Assembly: GCA_013297755.1 (NCBI GenBank)
Contig: JAAFIH010000012.1
Coordinates: 1 to 64,000, forward strand
Direction: 5' to 3'
Length of the DNA stretch: 64,000 bases
DNA from: Cytophagales bacterium
GTDB lineage: Bacteria; Bacteroidota; Bacteroidia; Cytophagales; UBA9547
Of the stretch, positions 37,282-57,975 are shown piece after piece (the stretch's first letter is position 1; every line of letters begins with the position of its first letter). The translations under genes and the position numbers were made by a program. The notes below the pieces were generated by a model. That model was not told the origin of the DNA and made no database searches. It saw nothing but the letters and a program-made list of their open reading frames with translations.

Positions 37282-37776
37282 ACTAATATTTTTTTAGTAA
37301 TATATTACTTTTGGTTATGTTTTAGAATTGCTTTTATCCAAAGTTGTTTTTTGAAAAATACTTTAAATTCAATAATCAAAAAATATAAATCAGCTTTTTA
37401 CTGTGCTATTAAATATTTACATATTTATTTTTAAAAAATACCCCTTTTTGATTTCGATAAATGGAAATTATAAATTAGGTATACGAATTTATAATTTTTT
37501 CAATTTAATAGCAGTTTTTCTATCCCCATCCCAATTTTAAATTAGCACATTCTTGCTCAAAACTTTCGTTTTGCCAACAAGCACAGAATCCAAAATGGAT
37601 TGGACTTTAGTTTCAACTACACAAAATACTTTCTATTTTAGTAATATTTCAATTTCTTATTATTAGATATTTTTAAATTCTTTTGCCCTGACAAATGTTG
37701 GCTTTAAAAGACTATTCTATTTTTTTATTATACAATCAAAATGATTTTATTTTTTTTCAAAAGGACATACCAAAAA
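37282..37776. other. AT-rich intergenic stretch without genes
   Basis: No supportable gene or RNA. The segment ends in the palindromes that follow giant gene 1. Confidence 0.5.
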
Positions 37777-37835
37777 GAACACGCCAAAAGGCGTGTTCCT
37801 AAAATACAAAAAAGAACACGCCAAAAGGCGTGTTC
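37777..37835. repeat. Two P1 palindromes 3' of giant T9SS gene 1
   Basis: Two copies of the hairpin GAACACGCC-AAAA-GGCGTGTTC (37777-37798 and 37814-37835), separated by 15 A-rich bases. They lie about 40-100 bases beyond the stop of giant gene 1 and could act as its terminator. The same palindrome recurs at 43674, 52464, 57557, 57658, 57708 and 57759. Confidence 0.85.
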
Positions 37836-37876
37836 CTACAATTTAAAAAAACATCAAAAAAAAGGTTTGTGGGCTT

Positions 37877-40800
37877 TTAGTCAACTACCAATTTTTTGCT
37901 CCTATTCCCTACTTTTACCAAATAAATGCCTTTAGCTAAATCAGCTTTTATTTGTGTATTTTCTGAATCTATTTTTTGTGTATAAACAATCGAACCCAGC
38001 GCATTGAAAATAGTTAATAGTTCTGTGTTGGTTGTTGGTTGTTGGATGTTTACACTAAATTCGCCATTGGAAGGGTTGGGATAGATGCTAAAACTGGTAG
38101 ATTGGTAGGTTGGTAGATTGGTAGAAGTCATTGTTGCATCTGTTGGAGTAATCAAAACACTTGCAGTTGGCACTTGGTTTGGGTTGCTTACTTGCACATT
38201 AACAGCTCCAGTATTAGTGATAACTCCAACTGGTAAGTTTATAATCAATGTATTGTTTCCTATGCTTGCTACAACAGGTACTGCTACTCCATTGATTGTA
38301 ATATTGGCTCTTGAACTAAATCCTAATCCATTTACTGTAATCAATGTTGGGCCTGTTATTGTGGTTATGTTTCCAATGGTTACTATGCCAGTAACTGTTG
38401 CCACAGGTACAGAAGTATTTGGTGGACTTACGATATTTAAAGTTGGGACTCCTACTTGCCCTGGATTTTGTACTGCTACATTTACAGAAGAAGAGTTAAA
38501 CCCACTTGGCAAGGTAGCCACTATGGTATTTCCATTTACTACTATAATGTTTGAAAGAACCACGCCATTCACAGTTACCGTTGCTCCATTTGCAAAACCT
38601 GTACCAGAAATAGTCATGCTATTGGCAGGATTGCCCGAAAGCACAACGCCTGTGGTACTTGCTACTGGCACAGATGTATTGATTGGGTTTACAACAGTTG
38701 TGGGTGTACTAGCTACTTGGTTTGGATTTTGCACTGCTACATTTACAGAATTAGAATTAAACCCACTTGGCAAAGTTGCCACTATGGTATTTCCATTTAC
38801 TAGTATAATGTTTGTAAGAACCACACCATTCACAGTTACAGTTGCTCCATTGACAAAACCTGTACCCGAAATGGTGATGCTATTGGCTGGATTGCCCGAA
38901 AGCACAACACCTGTGGTACTTGCGACTGGCACAGATGTATTGATTGGGTTTACAACAGTTGTTGGTGTACCTGCTACTTGGTTTGGATTTTGCACTGCTA
39001 CATTTACAGAATTAGAATTAAACCCACTTGGCAAAGTTGCCACTATGGTATTGCCATTTACTACTGTAATGTTTGTAAGAACCACACCATTCACAGTTAC
39101 AGTTGCTCCATTGACAAAACCTGTACCCGAAATAGTCATGCTATTGGCTGGATTGCCCGAAAGCACAACGCCTGTGGTACTTGCCACTGGCACAGATGTA
39201 TTGATTGGGTTTACAACAGTTGTTGGTGTACTAGCTACTTGGTTTGGATTTTGCACTGCTACATTTACAGAAGAAGAGTTAAACCCACTTGGCAAAGTTG
39301 CCACTATGGTATTGCCATTTACTACTATAATGTTTGTAAGAACCACACCATTTACTGTTACGGTTGCACCATTGACAAAACCTGTACCAGAAATAGTGAT
39401 GCTATTGGCTGGATTGCCCGAAAGGGTTACACCATTAATAGTTGCTGAAGAAGGCAAAACTGTTGGAATTGTAACATCGATAGCTGTTATGGTAACTGTT
39501 GGCGATGGATAATCCTCATCGTTGTAAGCATACATCTCTGTACCAAGAATAGATGACAATACAATTGTTTCTATATTACTACTTTTTGGAGCTATACCCA
39601 CCAAACTCACTACTACAAAAGTACTACCTGAATTTAATTTCAGTCCAGCCCATAAATTATTGATTATGATTACTACACCATCTTCGTCATTGGTACTAAA
39701 AATAAAACCTAAACCTGTAACCGTAGCAACAGTTGCCGTTGCAGGATTGCCAGTAGTAAATATGCCAGTAATGGTTGGAATAGGTATTTCTCTAACTCTA
39801 GCACTATAAACTTCTGGTGTACACACATTTGGACCCGAGATAGTTACAAAATATGTACCTGCACCTTTGCCAGAAATAGTTGTGCCTGTTTCGCCACTAC
39901 TCCAATTGTAGGTAAGGTTTGTACCCGCAGAAGATACCGTAATCGTAGCTGTTTGCCCTGTAAAAATATCTACATTCCTAGGACGAGTCACCAATACTGG
40001 AATCTCTTTGCGTACATAATTTGCAATAGTAGTTTGAGGCATACCACAATCGCCTTGCACCGTTACAGAAATGCTTGTGGTGGTAGATACAGTGTTATTA
40101 TTTGAATTATTGCCAGGGGTATTTGACCAAACATATTGCAGATTAGCACCTGTAGCCGATATTTCTATAACTGTATTATCTACACAAATATCTTGATTTA
40201 TTAATGGTGATACAATAGTAGTTAATGGAATAGTAGCAAAATTTGTACCATCTATCGTTTGCACAGCTGTGGTAAGGCTTGATGGAAAAATTGTTGGCGT
40301 ACCCGGACACATTTGCGTTGGATTCATAACGCATGGAATTGGGGCTCCAGGCATACTTCTACACGTATTTACTATGGCATAATATCCACCAAAAGTAACA
40401 TTGGCTTCGGTCAAAGAAATAGACTTTTGTCCATCAAATGCGGTTAATGCTATGTCATCACTTGTAGTTGATGTGTTATTATCAAAAAACCAACGGTATC
40501 TAGGGGTAGCTACTGCACACGATGGCGAATCAAACGATCCAGAAACAGTCAGATTAAAGGTACGACTAGTTGCTTGGCATAATCCCAAAACCGCTCCATC
40601 AAGATTTAAAGTTCCTACATTGTTGCTTACTGTTGCCGTTGGCAAAGTTCTGCTTGGGTTCAATACTTCTACATATACATTATCAGAAGTTATATTGTTG
40701 CATTTGCCCATTACATTTACTGAATAAAAACCAGTAGTAGTAGGGCTTATGCTAGGTGTATTTTCGCCAGTACTCCACATATAACTCAAATTTGTACCAA

Positions 40801-42388
40801 CTGCAGATACCGAAATAGTGCCAGTGGCTAGACCAGGTATAACAATAGATTTGGGTTGCTTAACGATAGCTGTAAGCGGACTTACATTATCAATAGTCAA
40901 TTCGATGTTTTCAATTAATGGAGCTCCGCAAAAACCACTAGAGGTAACCATATACACGCCAGCCGTAGATACATTGATGCCAGCAGTGGTAGCACCAGTG
41001 TTCCATAAAATAGTCACCCCACTTCCAATTGGATGCACGGTAAGTGCAGTCAACTTTTCTCCACAAATGGTTTGCGATGTGCTTGGCCCAGTCATATATT
41101 GTAAGTTAAAATAGTTTGATAGCACCACATTATTTGAAACCACTGGCAAACCACAAGATCCACTTACAGTTACGTTGTAGTTTGTATTTGCCACATTGGT
41201 ACTCATGGTATTAGTATTACTCAAGCCATTGCTCCAAGCATACATTAAATTTGTACCTGTTGCCGAAACTGCAAACAATACATTACTACCTGCACACGTG
41301 CTTTGCGAAACTGGTTGGCTGACTATACTTGTATTTGCCAAGCTAGTTAAAGTTGCTGTTTGCGATACTTGTGTATTACACAATCCATTGACAGTAACTG
41401 TATATGTACCAGCTCCAGCACTGATACCAGGTGTGGTTACTCCATTGCTCCAAATGTATGTTGGCAAAGTGCCTACTACACTCACAACCAAGCCTGTTGT
41501 AGAACCTACACAAACACTATTGTTTAAAGGTTGTGATGTAATGCTTGCGTTTGGTAAAAAATTATATATACCTGATATGCTTGTAACATTCTCTGATGTA
41601 ACAAAAGGCATACAACCCATTGGACCAGGCGTACACGTAGATCTTGTTTTGCAGGTACCAATCTTTACATAATATCCTCCAACTGACAAATTGGCTGCTG
41701 AAAGAGAAATGGAAGTTACTGTTGAGTTTAAAGCACCAATCAATATATCATCACCTGTAAAAGTAGTATTGTTATTGTAATACCAACTGTATGTATTTGA
41801 AACATTAGGACACATCATAGAGCCTCTAATTAAAAAACTACCACTTACACTGGCTGTAAATGTACGAAATGCAACATTACAAGCATCACTTACAGAGCCA
41901 TTTAAAATTATATCTCCATCGGGTATATTTATAATAGATGGAGGTAATTGAAGTGCTGGTGTGTTTTCTGTAACAATAGTAAATGGCATAGAGCCATAAA
42001 ATGTTGCAGAATTATTATTAATATTTAAAAAACCAGTGGTTGTACCTGTAAAAGTGTTATTAGTTAGGTTTATTGTATAACCAATAATAGAAGTAGTTTG
42101 AGAACCAGCAGCGGTACCAATATGTTGATATTGACTAATATTCAAAGCCAATGGAGAAATCGTATTGTTTGAATAGTTAATATTTAAATTTTCTAATGAA
42201 ACACTACCACTCCATTGATTCATTTGTGAAGTTATCGTAAAAGTACCTGTAGTAACAGAACCATTGGTAGCTTTTACAAATAAAGTACTTGGATTCCAAG
42301 TTGTATTGAGATTAACTCCGCCAGCAAAAGCGGCAAATTGTGTAGCCAAGGCCACAATAAAACTAAGTTTTGTAATTGTTTTGAACAT
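37877..42388 (-). CDS. Giant T9SS type A cargo protein 1 (Ig-like and IPT/TIG repeats)
   Basis: A 1503-residue secreted protein. A signal peptide (MFKTITKLSFIVALATQFAAFAG) is followed by about 950 residues of beta-rich Ig-like segments with repeated SNG/WSTG and TGTYxVTVxGxC patterns. Next comes a block of near-identical 87-residue IPT/TIG-like repeats (about 983-1336, GNPANSxTISGTGFVNGATV), then a type A Por sorting domain (from about 1431, FSIYPNPSNGEFS, ending GIYLVKVGNRSKKLVV). It should cross the outer membrane through the T9SS and be anchored or released, probably as an adhesin or matrix protein (inference). Its tail and upstream region match giant gene 2. The tandem DNA repeats leave a long open frame on the opposite strand that is an artefact. 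Confidence 0.88.
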   Translation of the reverse strand: MFKTITKLSFIVALATQFAAFAGGVNLNTTWNPSTLFVKATNGSVTTGTFTITSQMNQWSGSVSLENLNINYSNNTISPLALNISQYQHIGTAAGSQTTSIIGYTINLTNNTFTGTTTGFLNINNNSATFYGSMPFTIVTENTPALQLPPSIINIPDGDIILNGSVSDACNVAFRTFTASVSGSFLIRGSMMCPNVSNTYSWYYNNNTTFTGDDILIGALNSTVTSISLSAANLSVGGYYVKIGTCKTRSTCTPGPMGCMPFVTSENVTSISGIYNFLPNASITSQPLNNSVCVGSTTGLVVSVVGTLPTYIWSNGVTTPGISAGAGTYTVTVNGLCNTQVSQTATLTSLANTSIVSQPVSQSTCAGSNVLFAVSATGTNLMYAWSNGLSNTNTMSTNVANTNYNVTVSGSCGLPVVSNNVVLSNYFNLQYMTGPSTSQTICGEKLTALTVHPIGSGVTILWNTGATTAGINVSTAGVYMVTSSGFCGAPLIENIELTIDNVSPLTAIVKQPKSIVIPGLATGTISVSAVGTNLSYMWSTGENTPSISPTTTGFYSVNVMGKCNNITSDNVYVEVLNPSRTLPTATVSNNVGTLNLDGAVLGLCQATSRTFNLTVSGSFDSPSCAVATPRYRWFFDNNTSTTSDDIALTAFDGQKSISLTEANVTFGGYYAIVNTCRSMPGAPIPCVMNPTQMCPGTPTIFPSSLTTAVQTIDGTNFATIPLTTIVSPLINQDICVDNTVIEISATGANLQYVWSNTPGNNSNNNTVSTTTSISVTVQGDCGMPQTTIANYVRKEIPVLVTRPRNVDIFTGQTATITVSSAGTNLTYNWSSGETGTTISGKGAGTYFVTISGPNVCTPEVYSARVREIPIPTITGIFTTGNPATATVATVTGLGFIFSTNDEDGVVIIINNLWAGLKLNSGSTFVVVSLVGIAPKSSNIETIVLSSILGTEMYAYNDEDYPSPTVTITAIDVTIPTVLPSSATINGVTLSGNPANSITISGTGFVNGATVTVNGVVLTNIIVVNGNTIVATLPSGFNSSSVNVAVQNPNQVASTPTTVVNPINTSVPVASTTGVVLSGNPANSMTISGTGFVNGATVTVNGVVLTNITVVNGNTIVATLPSGFNSNSVNVAVQNPNQVAGTPTTVVNPINTSVPVASTTGVVLSGNPANSITISGTGFVNGATVTVNGVVLTNIILVNGNTIVATLPSGFNSNSVNVAVQNPNQVASTPTTVVNPINTSVPVASTTGVVLSGNPANSMTISGTGFANGATVTVNGVVLSNIIVVNGNTIVATLPSGFNSSSVNVAVQNPGQVGVPTLNIVSPPNTSVPVATVTGIVTIGNITTITGPTLITVNGLGFSSRANITINGVAVPVVASIGNNTLIINLPVGVITNTGAVNVQVSNPNQVPTASVLITPTDATMTSTNLPTYQSTSFSIYPNPSNGEFSVNIQQPTTNTELLTIFNALGSIVYTQKIDSENTQIKADLAKGIYLVKVGNRSKKLVVD
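38641..39423 (-). repeat. Tandem 261-bp coding repeats (87-residue units)
   Basis: Three near-identical 261-base units in register (38641, 38902, 39163), with diverged partial units on both sides. Each encodes one IPT/TIG-like repeat. The near-identity at silent positions suggests recent expansion or gene conversion. Confidence 0.9.
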
Positions 42389-42390
42389 AA

Positions 42391-42437
42391 TTGTTAATTA
42401 TTAATTGTTAATGGTTAATTGTTAATTGTTAATGGTT
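42391..42437. repeat. AATTGTTAAT microrepeats in the leader of giant gene 1
   Basis: Short tandem variants of TTAATTGTTAATGG occupy the bases just upstream of the giant gene 1 ATG, in its probable 5' untranslated leader. Giant gene 2 lacks them, which explains part of its shorter leader. Confidence 0.75.
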
Positions 42438-42449
42438 TTAAATTGATTG

Positions 42450-42457
42450 CAAAAGTA
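42450..42457 (-). promoter_or_regulatory. Candidate -7 element for giant gene 1
   Basis: On the minus strand this reads TACTTTTG, a full TAnnTTTG match, about 60 bases upstream of the ATG. No clear TTG -33 element is present. Confidence 0.4.
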
Positions 42458-42579
42458 TAATAAAATTTTTTAATATAAAGAAACTATTTTTGGGCAAATC
42501 AGCCCGAAATCGTAAAAATTCTAATTTTAATGCTATTTGAAATTAAAATAATACAATAGATTGATTAGAATGTGAATTT

Positions 42580-42596
42580 TATGTAATTATTACATA
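42580..42596. promoter_or_regulatory. TATGTA-N5-TACATA dyad upstream of giant gene 1
   Basis: An inverted repeat of 6-bp arms with a 5-base spacer (ATTAT). The same arms and spacing, with a different spacer (ATATC), occur at 52937 upstream of giant gene 2. Conservation of the arms inside the duplicated region suggests a regulator-binding site. Confidence 0.5.
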
Positions 42597-42812
42597 ATTA
42601 ACTCTACAAAGATATAATCAAAAAATATATTTTTTAAAGTTATTTTCATTCAAAATATCCCAATAAGACATTTTTGTAAAAATTGTTATGTTTTATATAG
42701 AAATAATTATATAAATTAGAAAAAAATATTCAAAAAAAGTAAGGTATTTTTCAAATTAAATTTTTTTTTTTTTAAGAATTAGAAGTTCCACTTTTTTAAA
42801 AAATGGAACTTC
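42580..42812 (-). repeat. Duplicated upstream region, copy of giant gene 1
   Basis: Read on the minus strand, this segment aligns almost base for base with 52732-52953 upstream of giant gene 2: a GAACTT palindrome, TTTAATTTGAAAAATACC, TCTAATTTATATAATTATT, GTCTTATTGGGATATTTTGA, then GTTAATTATGTAATA. Similarity fades beyond the dyad. The coordinates and orientation track the two genes, so it is probably a shared regulatory region. Confidence 0.85.
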
Positions 42813-43696
42813 TGGAGTTTATAATGATACCATCTCGCTCAAAGCGATGGTATCTTTTGTTTAGTTTGACTGTGAGGTGTTATCACCTCACACGAATAGT
42901 TTGACTGTAAGGTGATAACACCTCACAGGACAGAATAGTCTAAAGACCTATAAGGTTTTTAAAAAACCTTATAGGTCTGATTTTAAATTTAATTAGTACA
43001 AGTTTTGCCGTGTGAGGTGTTATCACCTCACACGAATAGTTTGACTGTAAGGTGATAACACCTCATAGGACAGAATAGTCTAAAGACCTATAAGGTTTTA
43101 AAAACCTTATAGGTCTGATTTTAAATTTTTTTGCCGTGTGAGGTGTTATCACCTTACACGAATAGTTTGACTGTGAGGTGATAACACCTCACAGGGCAGA
43201 AAAAGTGGAACTTCTGGAGTTGAAAAAGATACCATCGCTCAAAGCGATAGTATCTTTTGTTTAGTTTGACTTTGAGGTGATAACACCTCATAGGACAGAA
43301 TAGTCTAAAGACCTATAAGGTTTTTAAAAAACCTTATAGGTCTGATTTTAAATTTTTTTGCCGTGTGAGGTGTTATCACCTTACACGAATAGTTTGACTG
43401 TGAGGTGATAACACCTCACAGGGCAGAAAAAAATTTTTTTGCCGTGTGAGGTGTTTTGCCGTGTGAGGTGTTATCACCTAACACGAATAGTTTGACTGTA
43501 ATGTGATAACACCTCATAGGACAGAATAGTCTAAAGACCTATAAGGTTTTAAAAACCTTATAGGTCTGTTTTTAAATTTAATTAGTACAAGTTCCACTTT
43601 ATTAAAAAAGTGGTACTTCTGGGATTGAAAAAGATACTATTGCTTTGAGCGATGGTATCTTTATTAAATAAAAGAACACGCCAAAAGGCGTGTTCT
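42781..43696. repeat. Composite palindrome field (families P1-P5)
   Basis: About 900 bases built almost wholly from five short palindrome families. P5: AGTTCCAC...GTGGAACT. P2: GATACCATCGCT...AGCGATGGTATC. P4: GTGTGAGGTG-TTAT-CACCTCACAC and its reverse orientation. P3: AGACCTATAAGG...CCTTATAGGTCT. P1: GAACACGCC-AAAA-GGCGTGTTC (43674-43695). P4 and P3 alternate about five times with constant linkers (AATAGTTTGACTGT, AGAATAGTCTAA). It lies between divergent genes, so these hairpins are not simple terminators. No coding frame spans it. Confidence 0.9.
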
Positions 43697-43792
43697 TACA
43701 AACCCCCAAGGTGGATTTTATTAACCATCCAAAAAACAAAATTTAAAGTTTAAATTATAAAATATTTTCATAAAAATTTTATTTTAAAACAT

Positions 43793-43818
43793 TTTGTATA
43801 AATTGCAATTTATACAAA
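43793..43818. promoter_or_regulatory. 26-bp perfect palindrome upstream of the glutamate synthase-like gene
   Basis: A perfect dyad centred on AATTGCAATT, with outer arms TTTGTATA and TATACAAA, 36 bases before the ATG at 43855. It has no loop, which suits a dimeric repressor site better than a terminator. Not seen elsewhere in the window. Confidence 0.45.
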
Positions 43819-43854
43819 CAATTCTAAAAAAATACACACCCATTTTATAGTTTT

Positions 43855-45450
43855 ATGAAAGACGAAGGATTACAACTTATCGAAACAGAATTTGCCATAC
43901 TTACTTATGCACTTTATGCTTTTTTTATTTTTATAGTTATAGTGGCTATTAAAGACATATTTTTCAATAAAAAGCATACAATAAAACATAATTTTCCTGT
44001 AGTAGGACATTTGAGATATTTATTAGAAAAAATTGGTCCCGAATTGCGTCAGTATATAGTAGCCAGTAATAGAGAGGAATTGCCTTTCAACCGTAGCCAA
44101 CGCTCGTGGATTTATGCTTCTGCAAAAAAAGAAAATAATTACTCTGGTTTTGGCACCGATCAAGATATTTATGCACCAGGTCATATTTTTATAAAGCCAG
44201 CAGTTTTTCCGTTTCATGTCAAAAAAGACCACATCAATTTTGGCGACCCAGCTTTTTTGCCATGTGCAAAAGTAATAGGAGCGGCATCACAGCGACAAAA
44301 GCCTTTTAGACCATATTCTGTGGTCAATATTTCGGCCATGAGCTATGGTTCGCTATCGGCAGCTGCCGTAGAAAGCATGAACAAAGGTGCACTCAAAGCT
44401 GGATGCTACCACAACACTGGCGAAGGTGGATTATCGCCTCATCATAGTCATGGAGCAGACGTTATTTTTCATTTTGGCACTGGTTATTTTGGGGTTAGGG
44501 ACGATGAAGGCAGATTTTCAATGCCCAAAATAAAGCAATTAGTCATAGACAAACCATTTGTAAAAGCCATAGAAATAAAACTTTCGCAAGGTGCCAAACC
44601 AGGAAAAGGTGGAGTTTTGCCAGGTGCTAAGGTTACCAAAGAGATTTCAGAAATCAGGCATATTCCTGTGGGCAAAGATGTACTTTCACCTGTCAATCAT
44701 TCGGCCTTTGGCAATATACAAGAACTGGTCGATTTTGTAGAATCAATAGCAGAAAATACAGGTCTGCCAGTGGGAATAAAATCAGCAGTAGGCAAAATGG
44801 AACAGTGGGAAGAGTTGGCCGTGATTATGAAAAAAACAGGCCGTGGACCAGATTTTATAACCATTGATGGGGGCGAGGGTGGTACAGGTGCAGCACCACC
44901 TGCCTTTGCAGATAGTGTTTCGCTACCTTTGGTACACGCCTTTTCAAACGTATATAAAGTATTTGCAAAACATGGTCTTACAGATAGAATCGTATTTATT
45001 GCCTCTGGTAAACTTGGCTTTCCTGCCAATGCTTTGATGGCGTTTGCTATGGGTGCCGACCTGATAAATGTAGCTAGAGAAGCCATGATTTCTATTGGTT
45101 GTATTCAAGCCCAAGTATGCCATACCAATCGTTGTCCCGCTGGGGTGGCTACCAATAGCAAATGGTTGCAAGCAGGTATAGACCCTACTTTAAAATCTGA
45201 AAGATTTTATAACTATGTAAAAAACTTACGAAAAGAAATTCTCGAAATTACTCATGCTTGTGGCTACGAACATCCTTGTCAGATGAAAATGGATGATGTA
45301 GAACTAAGTGCAGGTGGCCATGAACTTACTAAAACGCTAAAAGAAAACTATGGCTACGAAAAAGCCGAAGTGCCTTTTACCACTTTGGTTAGTTTACAAG
45401 ATAGCTTTTTGGGTGGTCAGAACAAAACATTGTTAGAGGTAACAAAATAA
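43855..45450 (+). CDS. FMN-binding glutamate synthase family protein
   Basis: A 531-residue protein with an N-terminal membrane helix (about 13-35), then a glutamate synthase central/FMN-type TIM barrel. Conserved blocks are NISAMSYGSLSAAAVESMNKGA, NTGEGGLSPHH, EIKLSQGAKPGKGG, IDGGEGGTGAAP and CHTNRCPAGVAT, whose cysteines help bind a 3Fe-4S cluster. There is no glutaminase domain, so it is not a complete GltB. The membrane-anchored stand-alone form is widespread in bacteria, and its electron donor and product are not settled. A perfect palindrome lies just upstream. Confidence 0.9.
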   Translation: MKDEGLQLIETEFAILTYALYAFFIFIVIVAIKDIFFNKKHTIKHNFPVVGHLRYLLEKIGPELRQYIVASNREELPFNRSQRSWIYASAKKENNYSGFGTDQDIYAPGHIFIKPAVFPFHVKKDHINFGDPAFLPCAKVIGAASQRQKPFRPYSVVNISAMSYGSLSAAAVESMNKGALKAGCYHNTGEGGLSPHHSHGADVIFHFGTGYFGVRDDEGRFSMPKIKQLVIDKPFVKAIEIKLSQGAKPGKGGVLPGAKVTKEISEIRHIPVGKDVLSPVNHSAFGNIQELVDFVESIAENTGLPVGIKSAVGKMEQWEELAVIMKKTGRGPDFITIDGGEGGTGAAPPAFADSVSLPLVHAFSNVYKVFAKHGLTDRIVFIASGKLGFPANALMAFAMGADLINVAREAMISIGCIQAQVCHTNRCPAGVATNSKWLQAGIDPTLKSERFYNYVKNLRKEILEITHACGYEHPCQMKMDDVELSAGGHELTKTLKENYGYEKAEVPFTTLVSLQDSFLGGQNKTLLEVTK

Positions 45451-52431: not shown

Positions 52432-52463
52432 TTTCAGCTCCCAAACATACCATGAATTTGTAG

Positions 52464-52756
52464 GAACACGCCTTTTGGCGTGTTCTTTTATTTTATAAAG
52501 ATACCATCGCTTTGAGCGATGGTATCTTTATAAACACCAGATGTTCCAGTTTATTAAAAAGTGGAACTACTACTAATAAAATTTAAAATCAGACCTATAA
52601 GGTTTTTAAAACCTTATAGGTCTAAACAAAAGATACCATCGCTTTCTGCCCTATGAGGTGTTATCACCTTACAGTCAAACTATTCGTGTGAGGTGATAAC
52701 ACCTCACACGGCAAAACCCCAGAAGTTCCACTTTTTGAAAAAGTGGAACTTTTAAT
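52464..52756. repeat. Palindrome cluster upstream of giant gene 2
   Basis: The same families as in the 42.8-43.7 kb field, in mostly inverted order: P1 (52464-52485), P2 (about 52499-52526), a degraded P5 near 52544-52565, P3 (52591-52623), half of P2 (52632-52645), P4 with its linker in reverse (about 52650-52710) and an intact P5 (52732-52750). It reads as a compact mirror image of the first field. It lies between the AraC gene and giant gene 2. Confidence 0.88.
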
Positions 52757-52953
52757 TCTTAAAAAAAGAAAATTTAATTTGAAAAATACCTTACTTTTTT
52801 TGAATATTTTTTTCTAATTTATATAATTATTTATATATAAAATATAATAATTCTTATAAAAATGTCTTATTGGGATATTTTGAACGAAAATAATTTTGAA
52901 AATTCTATTTTTTGATTTTACTTTTGTTGGGTTAATTATGTAATATCTACATA
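52732..52953 (+). repeat. Duplicated upstream region, copy of giant gene 2
   Basis: Aligns with the reverse complement of 42580-42800. About the first 95 bases are nearly identical to the other copy; the rest is similar with scattered changes. It ends in the TATGTA-N5-TACATA dyad, 71 bases before the ATG of giant gene 2. Confidence 0.85.
52937..52953. promoter_or_regulatory. TATGTA-N5-TACATA dyad upstream of giant gene 2
   Basis: Same arms and spacing as the dyad at 42580, with spacer ATATC instead of ATTAT. The arms are conserved while flanking bases and the spacer differ, suggesting selection on the arms. Confidence 0.5.
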
Positions 52954-53023
52954 AAAAGTACACATTTATTTATCTATTTATTTAAGTTTTAACCCTTTTA
53001 TCCATTTTAACCCCATTACTATT

Positions 53024-57550: not shown

Positions 57551-57556
57551 TTGTAG

Positions 57557-57578
57557 GAACACGCCTTTTGGCGTGTTC
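57557..57578 (+). terminator. P1 hairpin as probable terminator of giant gene 2
   Basis: GAACACGCC-TTTT-GGCGTGTTC, six bases after the stop codon and followed directly by a run of T. It fits an intrinsic terminator while also being a member of the P1 palindrome family. Confidence 0.7.
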
Positions 57579-57593
57579 TTTTTTTTGTTTAAA

Positions 57594-57779
57594 GATACCA
57601 TCGCTCAAAGCAATGGTATCTTTTCAATCCTATATTTGACTTTTTTTTGAATTGTAGGAACACGCCTTTTGGCGTGTTCATTTTTTTGACGTTTTTTTGA
57701 ATTGTAGGAACACGCCTTTTGGCGTGTTCATTTTTTTTGACGTTTTTTTGAATTGAAGGAACACGCCTTTGGCGTGTTC
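57594..57779. repeat. P2 palindrome and a 3-copy tandem of P1 with linker
   Basis: P2 lies at 57594-57620. Three P1 hairpins follow at 57658, 57708 and 57759, a period of about 50 bases, each preceded by TTTTTTTGAATTGTAGGAAC-like linker and followed by TTTTTTGACG. The last copy has lost a base in the loop. A reading frame on the minus strand through these repeats is an artefact. Confidence 0.85.
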
Positions 57780-57975
57780 TTTTTTTGTATTGTTTTCTCA
57801 AAAATACCCTCGCTCAAAGCGTTGTGATTTTTAAAAGCCTACAGGGTTATATACCCAATATATGATTTATATATAAGTTTTTTTTGAAATTATTACTTTA
57901 TGTTTCCAAATATGTAAATCATTAACTTTTATTAAAACAATACAATAGCATACATTAGTGATTTTTACCATATTT

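Follow-up and report, generated by a model that had tools for sequence, protein, structure and literature searches.

A probable composite mosaic of repetitive extragenic palindromes and its links to RAYT and T9SS cargo genes in a Cytophagales genome

Introduction

The palindrome field analyzed here, at positions 42781-43697 of the window (the whole 64-kb stretch of DNA under study), is composed of five palindrome families, P1 to P5, separated by constant linkers. With a probability of roughly 0.8, it is a composite, BIME-like mosaic of repetitive extragenic palindromes (REPs), three families of which were spread with the help of REP-associated tyrosine transposases (RAYTs), and which was carried along as the spacer of a T9SS gene. 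Because three of the families surround genes for such DNA-cutting enzymes elsewhere, the field gives the impression of a place where tiny pieces of mobile DNA collect.

REPs, REPINs, BIMEs and RAYTs are known elements, and the available text of PMC3116915 describes tandem arrays of two REP families, GI and GIII, in SBW25. An earlier claim, made from the sequence only, that the field differs from simple REP arrays thus holds for the presence of five families in one array but not for the mixing of families as such. The spread of REPs and the domestication of RAYTs are open questions in this area. The present genome contains three RAYT-palindrome pairs with their substrates side by side in a single array and, together with a clade of relatives in which palindrome and enzyme covary, these make specificity and cross-talk directly testable. 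As far as the literature searched, which is incomplete, shows, an array of five families with RAYT partners for three of them in the same genome is new, as are an untagged, perfect 33-nt palindrome class in Cytophagales and the preference of the repeats for T9SS genes.

Results and discussion

Structure of the field

The elements of the field are as follows (coordinates in the window, strand, feature; a point marks features with no strand).

42781-42813,., P1, 33-nt palindrome of the AGAAGTTCCAC... family
42823-42857,., P2 palindrome of the GATACCATC... family
42870-42928,., P4 inverted pair 1, similar to a REPIN, with arms of 23 nt around a 13-nt spacer
42944-42978,., P3, perfect 35-nt palindrome
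43009-43069,., P4 inverted pair 2
43084-43116,., P3, perfect 33-nt palindrome, identical to the 33-mer flanking the G008 RAYT gene (L255)
43135-43195,., P4 inverted pair 3
43202-43216,., half P1
43224-43258,., P2 palindrome
43274-43289, -, single P4
43309-43343,., P3, perfect 35-nt palindrome
43362-43422,., P4 inverted pair 4
43437-43452,., cut-off P4 start, tandem slip of 17 nt
43460-43519,., P4 inverted pair 5
43533-43569,., P3, perfect 33-nt core at 43535-43567
43589-43618,., P1
43630-43662,., P2
43672-43697, -, P5, of the GTAG-type family but with GTAA in this copy; T tail on the - strand

The order is thus P1-P2-[P4P4-P3]-[P4P4-P3]-[P4P4]-half P1-P2-[P4-P3]-[P4P4] up to the fourth P4 pair, followed by a cut P4-[P4P4-P3]-P1-P2-P5. 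P1 is present in two copies and a half, P2 in three, P3 in four, P4 in 11 and P5 in one. All four P3 copies are perfect over a core of 33 or 35 nt. P4 occurs as five inverted pairs, each with a 13-nt spacer, and as the single copy at 43274; each pair could fold as one long hairpin, which is the REPIN form of two inverted REPs and a spacer in one predicted hairpin. This mapping bears out the sequence-only reading with regard to five ordered families with constant linkers over about 900 bases, the alternating orientation of P4 and a location between divergent genes, namely a 1503-aa gene on the - strand (start 42388) and a 531-aa gene on the + strand (start 43855). Its count of about five units in which P3 follows P4 had to be lowered to four.

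Exact repeats of 105, 66 and 64 nt are found inside the field, the longest of which, 43100-43204, recurs from 43327. Furthermore, seven terminator-like hairpins lie in 42300-44000, compared with 0.6 (sd 0.9) in shuffled sequences. The exact repeats and this hairpin excess exclude a chance origin, and the repeats, together with the 17-nt slip, indicate growth by tandem duplication. The field does not have the repeat structure of a CRISPR array: instead of identical direct repeats and unique spacers, it has palindromes of several families in a mixed sequence, and the linkers between them are constant.

The strong stems raise the question of a structured RNA array or a docking site for nucleoid proteins. 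At least two Watson-Crick pair types occur at seven of the 15 stem positions of P1, ten of 15 of P2 and nine of 15 of P3. Such pair-keeping changes fit a substrate that must fold and are also expected of RAYT substrates, but hairpin-templated repair would give the same pattern. A scan against Rfam gave 38 matches up to an E value of 1, none of which reached the gathering score, and the best matches of the field were eukaryotic microRNA models, which fit any long hairpin. The structured RNA proposed earlier thus found no support in Rfam, and we regard an RNA or nucleoid-protein function as highly improbable.

Copies elsewhere in the genome

The genome is a draft of 4,240,542 bases in 70 contigs. 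A pattern search of all of it with at most three mismatches found 31 copies of P3, 11 of P2, 11 of P1 and 43 of P5, with none for the reversed-pattern controls; P4 gave 34 forward and 27 reverse matches, against 9 and 11 for its control. With looser patterns, the window and 35 fetched stretches contained 42 copies of P5, 37 of P3, 35 of P2, 32 of P1 and 30 of P4. All five families are therefore scattered over the 4.24-Mb genome, which answers the search proposed for each palindrome. Scattering combined with a lack of ordered units and of a T9SS link had been named in advance as telling against the first view of the field; the palindromes are scattered, yet ordered units and a T9SS link are both present.

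The palindromes agree with REPs in size (20-40 nt), in their many copies and in their extragenic position. Few of the listed clusters lie within an ORF: P3 does so once, in L154, P5 once, in L139, and a P4-like palindrome once, in L144. Inverted P4 pairs are also found at C1:130579, C1:133189, C9:11226 and C4:52655, and the order P3-P1-P2 recurs beside a T9SS gene in C15. Among 470,729 nt of sequence from the same genome, 61 of 231 palindromes are 33 nt long, compared with two of 24 in a Markov control; these counts are not genome-wide, because the stretches were selected around palindromes. P1, P2, P3 and other families have the 33-nt length in common. A direct tandem repeat of ~21 nt (AACACTAACTATTGCATATCC; L125:10500-10690) lies downstream of one P1-P2 pair.

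RAYT genes in the same genome

The transposase proposed as a thing to look for elsewhere in the genome, a RAYT-like Y1/HUH gene, was found three times. P4 brackets the gene P0001, with four copies before it and two after it in opposite orientation; P3 brackets P0002 (four copies before, five after); and P1 brackets P0003 (two copies on each side, within 160 nt). The proteins match NCBIfam NF047646 (REP-associated tyrosine transposase) with E values of 2.8e-18, 1.6e-18 and 7.3e-15, respectively, and scores of 66.2, 67 and 55.1 bits, and they are termed RAYT relatives rather than members of this equivalog because these scores lie below its curated cut-off of 80. NF047646 has 21 matches in this genome, including fragments; six of 14 control genomes have a match and one of 14 has a match over the cut-off. 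All three proteins have the NHxH and YIHxNP motifs of HUH, single-tyrosine enzymes, and a profile of seven RAYTs from this genome (alignment A2) matches PDB entry 4er8, TnpA-REP, at 2.3e-13. Pfam PF01797 (Y1_Tnp) gave ten matches but missed P0001-P0003, which were found only through the bracketed ORFs and NF047646.

The idea that the field is a target of a RAYT-like transposase thus stands for P1, P3 and P4, which flank RAYT genes, but not for P2 and P5: in two sets of ten RAYT loci of this genome, neither P2 nor P5 stands directly beside the gene, an absence that carries little weight in a draft genome. One P2 copy lies farther out than the P1 copies on each side of P0003. The palindromes beside the genes differ slightly from those of the field. 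The P4 copies beside P0001 form a sister subfamily with CAGGTG and AAGGTG against GAGGTG in the field, P3 has AAACC against AGACC, and P1 has AAGTACC against AAGTTCC. L235, the nearest relative of P0003 in the set (69%), has a different palindrome family at its flanks, and the P0003 ORF itself contains a member of that family; P1 may therefore be a later neighbor of P0003. Other RAYTs of the genome have other palindromes, such as that of C6, which has its own 33-mer shortly after the stop codon. A RAYT in C9, ~0.9 kb from a P4 pair, was considered as the enzyme of P4 and rejected, as it is flanked by palindromes of its own. The P4-linked transposase gene has a second, truncated copy (L122:5847-6417), which contains an internal duplication and bears a copy of P4 where its 3′ end is broken.

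RAYT loci in other genera

An alignment of P0002, P0003 and the C6 RAYT was used as the query, and matches were obtained in 36 of 59 genomes, including the present one. All 37 matches of at least 99 bits outside this genome were used to compare the left and right flanks. Palindromes are present on both sides at 22 of the 37 loci, and the best left-right pair exceeds the similarity threshold at 15, compared with a mean of 0.47 and a maximum of 3 in 201 between-genome shuffles; the left-right test failed at the other 22. At ten of the 37 loci a matching palindrome copy lies inside the RAYT ORF. In G003 and G008, which belong to other genera, 33-mers of P3 flank relatives of the P3-linked RAYT, and that of G008 is letter for letter the 33-mer at 43084-43116.

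Similarity among RAYTs is correlated with similarity among their palindromes (28 loci, Spearman 0.365, reached in none of 2000 permutations), and remains so with P0002 added (29 loci, 0.36, 1/2000) and with pairs above 60% identity removed (0.33, 3/2000; 400 of 406 pairs kept). For these correlations 7, then 10, of the 37 loci were left out by hand, having no palindrome or a broken or unreadable ORF, and three loci of the present genome were added; further loci were lost automatically, giving the 28 and 29 used. A frame with a T9SS tail is present anywhere within the locus at five of 28 loci of the relatives (four of them independent, as L156 and L181 are one place), and the T9SS link in relatives is weak.

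Comparison with known systems

The field and its RAYTs resemble the REPIN/BIME arrays and RAYTs of Pseudomonas fluorescens SBW25 and Escherichia coli as far as the available text describes them, in that palindromes are short and extragenic, in inverted pairs that form long hairpins and in tandem clusters, and that, as each family in those systems is tied to its own RAYT, P1, P3 and P4 flank their own RAYT genes. Unlike in SBW25 and E. coli, five families share one array, most of them have no GTAG, and P1-P3 are perfect palindromes with a constant length of 33 nt. The proteins are similar to the Bacteroidetes TnpA-Y1 subclasses 2.4 and 2.6, which are HUH/Y1 proteins with NHxH and YIHxNP-like motifs. 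However, the palindromes of subclass 2.4, compared here by its description, have GT[AG]G, which the strong, perfect 33-mers of the present genome do not, whereas those of subclass 2.6 lack GT[AG]G and are described as weaker. For the perfect-palindrome REPtrons Sm and Mb, the available text of PMC8266576 reports that the palindromes are cut in vitro by their TnpA-REP, which is less strict in requiring GTAG; their hairpins, according to the same text, are GTAG-tagged and of at most 8 bp, whereas those found here are of 15-16 bp.

On the preferred reading of a RAYT-spread mosaic, each RAYT would cut its own palindrome in single-stranded DNA and thereby help to spread it, and copies would have gathered at the 3′ ends of genes, above all of T9SS cargo genes, where they may act as terminators. 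No transposition event was seen.

P5 and the 3′ ends of T9SS cargo genes

P5 is a GTAG-tagged REP. GTAG directly precedes the stem on the 5′ side in 29 of 42 copies and is found at the other end in none, against a background in the window of 0.4% per site; the stem is of 9 bp with a 4-nt loop, and most copies are downstream of genes. The GTAG-tagged REPs of Di Nocera (2013) share these characteristics in the available text of that paper; unlike them, P5 has no RAYT found in its own draft genome. GTAG repeats are listed there in Proteobacteria, Cyanobacteria, Chloroflexi and the PVC group, and Bacteroidetes are named, in the text available, only for CGTC (PMC3733652). GTAG is absent at the foot of P2 (0/35), P3 (0/37) and P4 (0/30) and rare at P1 (5/32 at each end), and for this reason P1, P3 and P4 are termed RAYT-linked palindromes and P2 REP-like, rather than GTAG-REPs. 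After a T9SS gene in C23 there is a degenerate array of half P5 units (CCTTTTGGCGTGTTCT; L136:5600-5701).

The link to T9SS cargo genes was examined for all 91 PF18962 matches and for 25 of 27 PF13585 matches, two below the cut-off being left out, with the strict pattern hits of P1, P2, P3 and P5 and without P4. A palindrome lies within 200 nt downstream of 15 of the 91 and three of the 25 genes, compared with shift-control means of 0.40 and 0.05 (maxima of 4 and 2 in 2000) and with 0 and 0 on the flipped strand. As the shift control moves anywhere, mostly inside genes, part of this excess reflects a general 3′-end habit of REPs. These 18 T9SS 3′ ends, not all of them independent because some of the genes are paralogues, touch palindromes among ~50 clusters, whereas T9SS genes are ~4% of all genes (116 against ~2,900, the latter estimated from 319 ORFs of at least 90 aa in 470,729 nt). 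Palindromes also accompany non-T9SS genes, including those for an alpha-2-macroglobulin-like protein, a TaqI-type specificity-domain protein, Fic, an SMC-like protein and others. No paper joining REPs with T9SS genes was found in the literature searched, which did not cover most subscription journals.

The palindromes could instead be ordinary intrinsic terminators of T9SS genes, multiplied by gene duplication only, with the RAYT links being accidental clustering. This would agree with the position of many P5 copies 0-16 nt past T9SS stop codons, with a T tail (at least five T in 8 nt) on the sense side of 24 of 42 P5 copies and on the other strand of none, with palindromes common to paralogous T9SS genes, and with the placement of the 50 clusters of P1, P2, P3 and P5 in the window and 35 stretches (12 convergent, 28 tandem, three divergent and seven not classed). 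However, P5 follows both sorting domains, PF18962 and PF13585, which are unrelated to each other, as well as unrelated genes; P4 has neither a T tail (0/30) nor a 3′-end habit; a 33-nt length class is not expected of terminators; and RAYTs of other genera likewise have matching palindromes to their left and right. Terminators alone are thus an improbable explanation.

Neighboring genes and origin of the field

The field is one of the three clusters between divergent genes. The earlier statement that serial terminators make little sense there is correct for the two present neighbors, for which this function was rejected, as both genes read away from the field; it does not extend to the same palindromes at T9SS 3′ ends elsewhere. 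The surrounding features are the following.

37775-37837, -, two P5 copies beyond the stop codon of the 1503-aa T9SS gene
37877-42388, -, 1503-aa T9SS cargo gene with a PF18962 C-terminal domain
42550-42780, -, block upstream of the 1503-aa T9SS gene, with 88% identity to 52754-52982 over 233 nt
43855-45450, +, 531-aa gene, divergent neighbor on the other side of the field
52462-52753,., second mosaic, P5-P2-P1-P3-P4P4-P1
53024-57550, +, 1508-aa T9SS cargo gene, in part paralogous to the 1503-aa gene
57555-57782, +, P5 and P2 copies beyond the stop codon of the 1508-aa T9SS gene

The second mosaic aligns with the field when inverted (84% over 257 nt) and precedes the 1508-aa gene just as the field precedes the 1503-aa gene; the two proteins have parts in common, the best being the last ~260 residues (48%). 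The match extends past the palindromes into the region before the gene, at the 88% identity listed above, so that a single duplicated block comprises both the field and the T9SS promoter region. The odd site of the field between divergent genes is accounted for in this way, as a duplicated spacer-plus-promoter block with its second copy, at 52464-52982, before the 1508-aa T9SS gene. The closest named matches, by which the genome is judged to belong to the Cytophagales, include proteins with 91% identity to the 531-aa protein in two MAGs that bear the labels Bacteroidetes and Cytophagales bacterium, and no such field precedes the 531-aa gene in the two closest relatives that carry it. The field therefore looks like a moved spacer: the block would have arrived beside the unrelated 531-aa gene together with a copy of a T9SS gene, bringing palindromes that formerly followed another gene, and the transplanted field may then have expanded by tandem duplication.

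The mosaics could also be kept as recombination platforms, with shared palindrome blocks whose homology allows T9SS surface genes to be duplicated, inverted and reshuffled. The inverted relationship between the field and 52464-52982, including the promoter block, the P3-P1-P2 order beside the C15 T9SS gene and the exact internal repeats are all consistent with this; however, any dispersed repeat yields such recombination as a by-product, and many clusters lie at non-T9SS genes, so that maintenance for this purpose is considered unlikely.

A wider extension of the RAYT-spread mosaic, which we put forward tentatively and with more doubt than belief, is that RAYT-driven palindromes have turned, in this lineage, into exchangeable 3′-end and spacer cassettes of T9SS genes, with several RAYTs feeding a common mosaic. 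If so, mosaics would give T9SS genes terminators and shared homology and would drive duplication and reshuffling of the secreted-protein repertoire, and the fixed 33 nt (11 codons) would permit in-frame insertion, even in the genes of the enzymes themselves. The T9SS link suggests a route by which families of surface-protein genes may gain common 3′ ends.

Other repeats were observed at the T9SS genes. Within the 1503-aa gene there is a 261-nt tandem repeat (38462-39424, 3.7 copies, 94% matches), and directly before its start lie heptamer tandem repeats TAATTGT/TTAATTG (42388-42437, 7.1 copies). The same heptamers precede the starts of two related genes in C15 (L130:3205-3355, 21.6 copies, and L130:5975-6032, 8.4 copies) and resemble phase-variable promoter repeats.
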